Shown here: in pieces, positions 138 to 1,695 of the stretch
How the letters are laid out: every line of letters begins with the position of its first letter
Position numbering within the stretch: the stretch's first letter is position 1
Assembly (NCBI RefSeq): GCF_001619985.1
Contig: NW_017264197.1
Span: 744,001 to 808,000, forward strand
Origin: Xylona heveae TC161
Lineage: Eukaryota; Ascomycota; Xylonomycetes; Xylonales; Xylonaceae
Length of the DNA stretch: 64,000 nucleotides
Reading direction: 5' to 3'
Translations under genes and position numbers: made by a program
The notes under the pieces: generated by a model
Databases searched by the model: none
Seen by the model: the letters and a program-made list of their open reading frames with translations, nothing else
Told to the model about the DNA's origin: nothing

Positions 138-1695
138 TTAGTTCATCTGTCTGATGAGGTTGTTGATCTTGTCCTCCCGGTTACCAAGGTCACCGCCCTC
201 AATGTAGTGCTTGAACTTGCGGGTACGGAAACCACCAGTGGGGTTGCTGAGCTTGAAGGGCCACAAGAAGTTGCTGGCCTGCTTGAAGTTGGGGCCAACG
301 GTGAAGATCTCGTGGATCAAGTCCTCAACGCAGACAATGCCGTATTTGCCGAGGTTCTCCTCAATGATGGAGTTGTCGGTGAGGGCAATGCGCTGACGGT
401 TGACCTTACCGTAGCCGCGCTTGTAGACGAGTTCGCGGACGGACTTAAGGTTGGGGTAACCGTAGGCGATCCAGGGCTCAACGACCTTCAACATCTCAAG
501 AGTAGCCTTGGTAAGACGGACGAAGACACCGTTGTTGATCTGGAGAAGGCGGAGGAGCTGAAGAATCTTGCGGGGCTTGGGGGCAATCTTGTTGATACTA
601 GAATATGCAAGTTAGTGAGCTGATTAACTGGTGCTCGACTGCTGAGCAAACATACCCCTTAACGCGGACAACGAAGACCAGCTTGGACTCAGCAGGGACG
701 TAGTAGGAGCCCTCCTGCTTGCTCAAGCGGGCAAGGCGGACCTTCTCGCGCTCAGCATCGCGGTACTCCTTGACGTAGCTCTCGGCACGCTTGAAGATGA
801 CAGCGCGCTTCTCCTTCTGAGCCTATATGGATAGATAATTAGCAAGAATTCGACGGAAGAAAAAAAGCGAATAAATTGGAAATTCTTGGGCGACTCAGCC
901 CCGAAAGATGGTTAATTTAGCGACAACATTGACCCGAGGGACTAGTCGCGATGTGGTTGTTATAATCACAGTCGTTCCCAGTGGACATCTACTGGATAAA
1001 TCAAACGAGAGCTTTAAAAAAAATCTCACCTTTCTCTTCTTCTCGAGATCGGCCGCACGCTCCTCACGAGCCTTCTCCTGGCTCTTGCGCTTCTTCAGGA
1101 GCGTCTCAGGGACGAGGATCTGGTTCTGAGTGGGCACACTCCTAAACGTCCGGAACAAGTCAGATTAGTCTATCCGCAAATACAAAAATAGCATGTAACG
1201 CCGAGTGAAGAACTGCAGCTATAGCGCGGCATTCTCTGACGGAAGGCGAAACCTGAAACTCGACGAATAGATTTGATCAGTGAGATTGTTGGACGAGGCA
1301 GAGGTATGTTGATCACATCGTCCATACATGCCCCGAAGACAACTCTTTTCTCATCTGACAACACCTCAGATTCTCATCCGAGATTTGTAGGCACGTATTG
1401 TCAGATTCCCATTTTGAGCGCATGGCTAAGCCAATGCACGCAGAGATCCTAGATACGGCAATGTATTTGAAGGCGAAGACAACTTCTGCCTCAAAACCCC
1501 AATCCTAGACCAAAGAGTAATCGAATATATTGTATCACCCAAGGAAGGATTAATGGGAAGAATCGAGCTGGCGCTGGGCATTTCAGAAGAAAGAGGCCGC
1601 ACTTCCAGCCAACGGAATGACGACTATATCCGAAACTTCGACCGGTATCAATCAGCGGTTTGCGAAGAAGGGGATGCATACGTCTGGGGAGCCAT
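138..1695 (-). CDS. RPL7: 60S ribosomal protein L7 (uL30)
   Basis: Cytoplasmic large-subunit ribosomal protein of the uL30 family. Four exons by hand: 1682-1695, 1030-1141, 656-822 and 138-597, giving 250 residues, the usual fungal length. The protein starts MAPQTSVPTQNQ, then runs through the basic helix [20 protein letters not shown] and the conserved [36 protein letters not shown] and [19 protein letters not shown] blocks, and ends NNLIRQMN. The first exon is only 14 nt (donor GTATGC) and is followed by a 540-nt intron, a layout common in fungal ribosomal protein genes. The unspliced ATG at 1158 would give an atypical N-terminus, so I prefer the spliced start. The second intron (823-1029) is long and holds the snoRNA candidate. 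The gene is divergent from SNF8. Confidence 0.95.
888..979 (-). ncRNA. Box C/D snoRNA candidate in RPL7 intron 2 (snR39 family-like)
   Basis: Seen on the minus strand inside RPL7 intron 2: a degenerate C box GTGATTA (969-963), a D box CTGA (898-895), and a closing stem CGAC (974-971) with GTCG (894-891), extendable by GGG/CCC. Directly upstream of the D box is an antisense element whose complement, plus strand 900-912, reads CCCGAAAGATGGT, identical to a conserved segment of eukaryotic LSU rRNA. In budding yeast, snoRNAs snR39 and snR59 lie in RPL7 introns and guide methylation at A807 in this rRNA segment, and snR39b targets G805 (from memory). The fifth nucleotide before the D box here pairs with the G of CCCGAAAG, matching the G805 position. 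The C box differs from RTGATGA at one key base, which lowers confidence. Confidence 0.6.

Follow-up and report, generated by a model that had tools for sequence, protein, structure and literature searches.

Does the second intron of the RPL7 gene of Xylona heveae encode a small nucleolar RNA (snoRNA) that guides ribosomal RNA methylation, and if so, which nucleotide of the large-subunit (LSU) rRNA does it address? RPL7 (uL30) lies on the minus strand of the window (the whole 64-kb stretch of DNA analysed), running from 1695 to 138, with four exons (1695-1682, 1141-1030, 822-656 and 597-138) separated by three introns. Intron 2 (823-1029, minus strand), the host of the candidate RNA, is 207 nt long and is bounded by GTGAGA...ATATAG, while introns 1 (1681-1142) and 3 (655-598) measure 540 and 58 nt. 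The splice joins give an open frame of 250 amino acids, and the spliced protein matches the Pfam families Ribosomal_L30_N and Ribosomal_L30, its best match among solved structures being 60S ribosomal protein L7 (entry 7r81, residues 4-250). A single copy of the gene was found in the assembly (24,276,669 bases, or 24.3 Mb, in 17 contigs) by a search with the exon-4 part. The RPL7 intron position is conserved in 82% of the fungi studied, and for eight intron-poor fungal species C/D snoRNAs have been reported within introns of this gene.

Two other features of the gene can be described here. Intron 1 contains a hairpin (1406-1353, minus strand) made of a 12-bp outer stem (AUCUGACAAUAC/GUGUUGUCAGAU), a bulge of 12 nt on one side and an inner stem of 7 bp; at -21.7 kcal/mol (z -4.54) it was equalled by none of 200 dinucleotide shuffles, being the best of a scan, and Rfam listed no match at this place. 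It may be a regulatory element, and a "rpl7 motif" of about 30 nt has been described in introns of fungal L7 mRNAs (PMC5640933). Upstream of the gene, a palindromic tract (1957-1918, minus strand) is built of GTAAGGT/ACCTTAC units, and a sub-threshold U6atac match across it looks like chance.

Within intron 2, on the sense strand of the gene, a candidate RNA with the anatomy of a box C/D snoRNA spans 888-979 (minus strand; 92 nt including the closing stem). In gene sense the intron reads GGGAACGAC-T-GTGATTA ... ACCATCTTTCGGGG-CTGA-GTCGCCC, and the D box, degenerate C box and closing stem from which the first-pass annotation had proposed a snoRNA are all present. The D box, near the 3' end of the RNA, is the sole CTGA of the intron (898-895). 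Near the 5' end, the C box GTGATTA (969-963) has one mismatch to RTGATGA, a U in place of a consensus G (RUGAUGA). The two halves of the closing stem, GGG AA CGAC (971-979) and GTCGCCC (888-894), are joined by 4 bp between CGAC (974-971) and GTCG (894-891) and 3 bp between GGG (979-977) and CCC (890-888), with a bulged AA between the two helices; the mature ends probably lie near 974 and 891. A D' region (GACTAG, 942-947) and a C' region (CAATGTTGTC, 922-931, containing ATGTTGT with two mismatches) are tentatively assigned, both matching the consensus of the Rfam snR39 family, RF01197. The spacing within the intron fits a snoRNA, since 50 nt separate the 5' splice site from the stem and 41-60 nt is usual in Neurospora crassa; from the 3' end of the stem, 45 nt lead to CTAAT (838-842), a putative branch site. 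As a whole, the 92-nt sequence does not fold better than its shuffles (z -0.52, with 59 of 200 equally good), and in the minimum-energy fold the closing stem is absent and the D box is buried, the D-box region pairing with the internal GCGACTAGTCCC.

The imperfect C box bears on whether the RNA is still functional. The G at the mismatched position of a C box pairs with the C of the D box, and it could be hypothesized that intron 2 holds a decaying pseudogene, in which guide and D box are left but the C box is too damaged to build the particle; an Rfam score under the family cut-off (given below) would also suit this view. However, the guide, the D box, the stem and the internal segments are all intact, and nothing in the genome exceeds the cut-off of the SNORD2 (snR39B-type) model. 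For N. crassa, high conservation of the C and D boxes is described in 86% of cases rather than in every one, so a one-letter variant is tolerable. Decay to a pseudogene is considered very unlikely.

Beside the D box, ACCATCTTTCGGG (912-900, minus strand) is antisense over 13 nt to the LSU segment CCCGAAAGATGGT, the complementarity on which the first-pass annotation had based its target. The LSU letters come from printed sequences of other organisms, not from the LSU of X. heveae: ten stretches in a table of LSU from mushroom-forming fungi contain CCGAAAGATGG or the complementary letters (PMC12287172), and the 28S sequencing primers L1200F/R of a flatworm study cover the target segment (PMC3607561). 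Searched in the genome itself, the exact 13-mer occurs only at the RPL7 intron 2 place, and therefore no LSU gene with the target segment was found in the assembly, where the search for rRNA turned up a weak 5.8S-like piece and nothing else. Printed fungal LSU (GACCCGAAAGATGG) has an A opposite D+1 (G899), which limits the uninterrupted duplex to 13 bp, compared with a requirement of at least 10 bp; in the context GACCCGAAAGATGGTG, 13 pairs form, flanked by an unpaired D+1 on one side and an unpaired base 5' of the guide on the other. These pairs cover 802-814 in yeast numbers, as derived from the positions G805, A807 and A817 rather than from the yeast sequence. The D+5 nucleotide is C903, which stands opposite the G of CCCGAAAG, the equivalent of yeast 25S G805, exactly as first proposed.

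A published yeast table assigns Gm805 to snR39b and Am807 to snR39/snR59, and it is with the latter two that the Xylona RNA shares its host intron, so methylation of A807 instead of G805 could also be envisaged. However, intron 2 offers one CTGA only, and with four bases separating this box from the C that faces G805, A807 would be D+7. A target at A807 is accordingly judged highly improbable, and G805 is retained as the predicted site.

Could such an arrangement arise in an intron by chance, with antisense letters and no snoRNA? Intron 2 was dinucleotide-shuffled 5000 times and each shuffle was searched for a C box (up to one mismatch allowed), a CTGA located 46-110 nt further along, a 4-bp closing stem and a guide of at least 11 nt, antisense being sought against a 193-nt LSU piece. 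Taken alone, 13 nt of complementarity is short: at least 12 nt antisense to the LSU piece occurred anywhere in the intron in 8/5000 shuffles, and 14 nt was reached in 2/5000. C box, D box and stem together appeared in 3/5000 shuffles, but boxes, stem and guide together appeared in none (0/5000). Chance would also be suggested by the genome-wide E-value of the snR39 model at this place, 0.131, yet yeast snoRNAs for the same rRNA segment reside in the same intron. Chance antisense is scarcely credible, and the first reading of an intronic box C/D guide in RPL7, with its host confirmed by the uL30 Pfam matches, stands.

The comparison with Rfam families is less clear-cut. At gathering thresholds, Rfam gave no match in the whole window. 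RF01197 aligns end to end with the snoRNA (1-95 of 95) at 26.9 bits, under its gathering cut-off of 40, so the RNA is likely a relative of the family rather than a formal member. Genome-wide, the snoRNA place is the best of five at E <= 10, the next-best place scoring 21 bits (E 3.54). Of 14 control genomes from prokaryotes, 8 also give matches to the model at E <= 10, though over the cut-off in 0, and for this reason the score alone would not decide. What decides is the place of the RNA in RPL7 intron 2, on the sense strand. Nor does 26.9 against 40 disqualify the RNA, because another snoRNA of this genome, resembling snR55, is likewise under its own cut-off (33.4 vs 50). It lies side by side with snR61 in one locus (L032, 1496-1574 and 1727-1815; contig C4, near 492611), 152 nt away from it, snR61 itself being over its Rfam cut-off. 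This snR55-like RNA is what RF00133 matches in the genome, where that model gave nothing over its cut-off. RF01299 (SNORD2) is not listed at the snoRNA at E <= 10, in a scan that suppresses lower-scoring matches once their clan is listed; in the genome it gave nothing over its cut-off of 37, the best match lying elsewhere with 20.7 bits (61 of 4386 first-look candidates scored).

Altogether, anatomy, complementarity, place in RPL7 intron 2 and likeness to the Rfam snR39 model make it highly probable that this is an intron-encoded box C/D snoRNA guiding 2'-O-methylation of the LSU G equivalent to yeast 25S G805. It is an ordinary snoRNA, of a kind already described in fungi. By analogy with such RNAs, it would be expressed, processed and active in methylation. 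The standard route for intronic C/D RNAs is splicing, debranching and trimming to a protected core. Splicing of the RPL7 pre-mRNA would free intron 2 as a lariat, which would be debranched and then shortened as far as the closing stem, shielded by the C/D proteins, which in snoRNAs of this class are fibrillarin, Nop56/58 and Snu13. The 13-nt guide would then pair with the LSU segment, and the methyltransferase of the particle would be expected to 2'-O-methylate the nucleotide opposite D+5. Because the guide sits inside an RPL7 intron, its expression and that of its host would be tied.

A second guide to the same LSU segment was sought across the genome with two patterns. CATCTTTC followed by 1-4 nt and CTGA occurs at 21 places, that of the snoRNA included, and TGATG followed by 0-30 nt and CATCTTTC gave 70 matches; the scope is 57 loci examined, which take in all but one of the 21 places and all but 46 of the 70 matches. 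Among the 57 loci no second guide was convincing, and besides the snoRNA's own copies and an rRNA piece (L029, below) there were four near-misses. One combines 14 nt antisense with a C box that has one mismatch, yet no CTGA is nearby (L010), another has 12 nt and CTGA but no C box (L013), and in two a CTGA and a C box with a single mismatch accompany 9 nt antisense (L009, L027). With this coverage, a separate A807 or G805 guide elsewhere in the genome is possible. No relative was found with the RPL7 exon-4 protein in viral and genome contig collections, or with guide plus D box in viral contigs, these collections not being fungal. The one contig of the viral collection that matched the LSU pattern, an IMG/VR "viral" contig (L029), has a short piece of eukaryote-like LSU rRNA close to its end (near 3397-3330, minus strand). 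Rfam gave no match over cut-off for this piece, which is probably a chimera or contamination.

The closest published counterpart is N. crassa CD47, given in Table 1 of its report as a 75-nt intronic RNA with a D-box guide, a 16/0 match to 26S Gm785 and yeast snR39b as counterpart (PMC2780460). As CD48 (Am797) corresponds to snR60 (yeast Am817), numbering in the same report is offset by 20 and Gm785 equals yeast G805. CD47 is thus like the Xylona RNA in being intronic, in its D-box guide and in its target, and differs in length (75 against 92 nt including the stem) and in its 16/0 match; the table does not name its host gene. The table lists CD47 with northern and reverse transcription (N, R), but its asterisk refers to a footnote on RNAs annotated earlier in the N. 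crassa database and undetected experimentally (PMC2780460). There are four such asterisked RNAs, with counterparts snR61, snR52, snR39b and snR60, and the text states that snR39, snR52, snR60 and snR61 had already been annotated in Neurospora from Rfam (PMC2780460). The four counterparts parallel the four annotated names, and CD47 is therefore very probably the annotated N. crassa "snR39". In Trichophyton rubrum, TRnc_2265 comes from a sequenced cDNA library and is tabulated as an 87-nt intronic RNA of RF01197, for which Snoscan predicts 25S Gm808 (PMC3890542, Table 2). It is again intronic and an snR39 homologue, shorter than the 92-nt Xylona RNA, and its Gm808 would correspond to yeast G805.

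Names and targets do not coincide so well between Rfam and the yeast literature. In one compilation, RF01197 is the family given for snR39/59, with Am805 as the site in a numbering two lower, and RF01299 (SNORD2) is the family given for snR39B (PMC3511168). The RF01197 consensus, however, ends ...CCAUCUUUCGGGGCUGA / ...ACACCAUCUUUCGGGGCUGA, which is the G805 register with D+5 a C opposite G805, and the published snR39 and snR39b targets do not fit it. The discrepancy may come down to nomenclature. The options are that RF01197 is dominated by G805 guides, that a name or a target was exchanged, or that the register shifted in the yeast lineage. A yeast snR39 with GGGGCUGA, if true, would point to an error of naming or target assignment; in the literature searched, no paper was found that has both the letters of the guide and the name snR39 or snR59.

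In Saccharomyces cerevisiae, snR39b is presumably an independent gene. Its published target is G805, the site predicted for the Xylona RNA, and it differs in being marked (M) in the gene-location table. The first-pass annotation called the target snR39b-type; the snR39b model, RF01299, has no listed match at the Xylona snoRNA, and RF01197 aligns from end to end. A reshuffling of guide and host, also raised there, is not established: the RNA aligns with the snR39 model over its full length, GACTAG and the putative C' segment matching, and the consensus is itself in the G805 register. The RPL7-borne guides of S. cerevisiae, snR39 and snR59, occupy intron 2 of RPL7A and RPL7B, in line with their placing in RPL7 introns by the first-pass annotation, and target A807 according to the available account (PMC5295604); a survey of three Candida-clade species did not find them (PMC5033589). 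They resemble the Xylona RNA in being C/D snoRNAs for the same rRNA segment, and the Xylona RNA occupies their RF01197-type position, RPL7 intron 2, whereas their published target is two bases from G805. Speculatively, and less likely than not, an ancestral ascomycete RPL7-intron snoRNA could have guided G805, the Saccharomyces guides slipping two bases to A807 while the host intron stayed fixed and the G805 guide lived on as the separate gene snR39b. A possible origin of snR39/snR59 from a G805 guide by such a slip is a point of some interest, and X. heveae adds one more fungus in which this particular intron of RPL7 is home to an rRNA guide.
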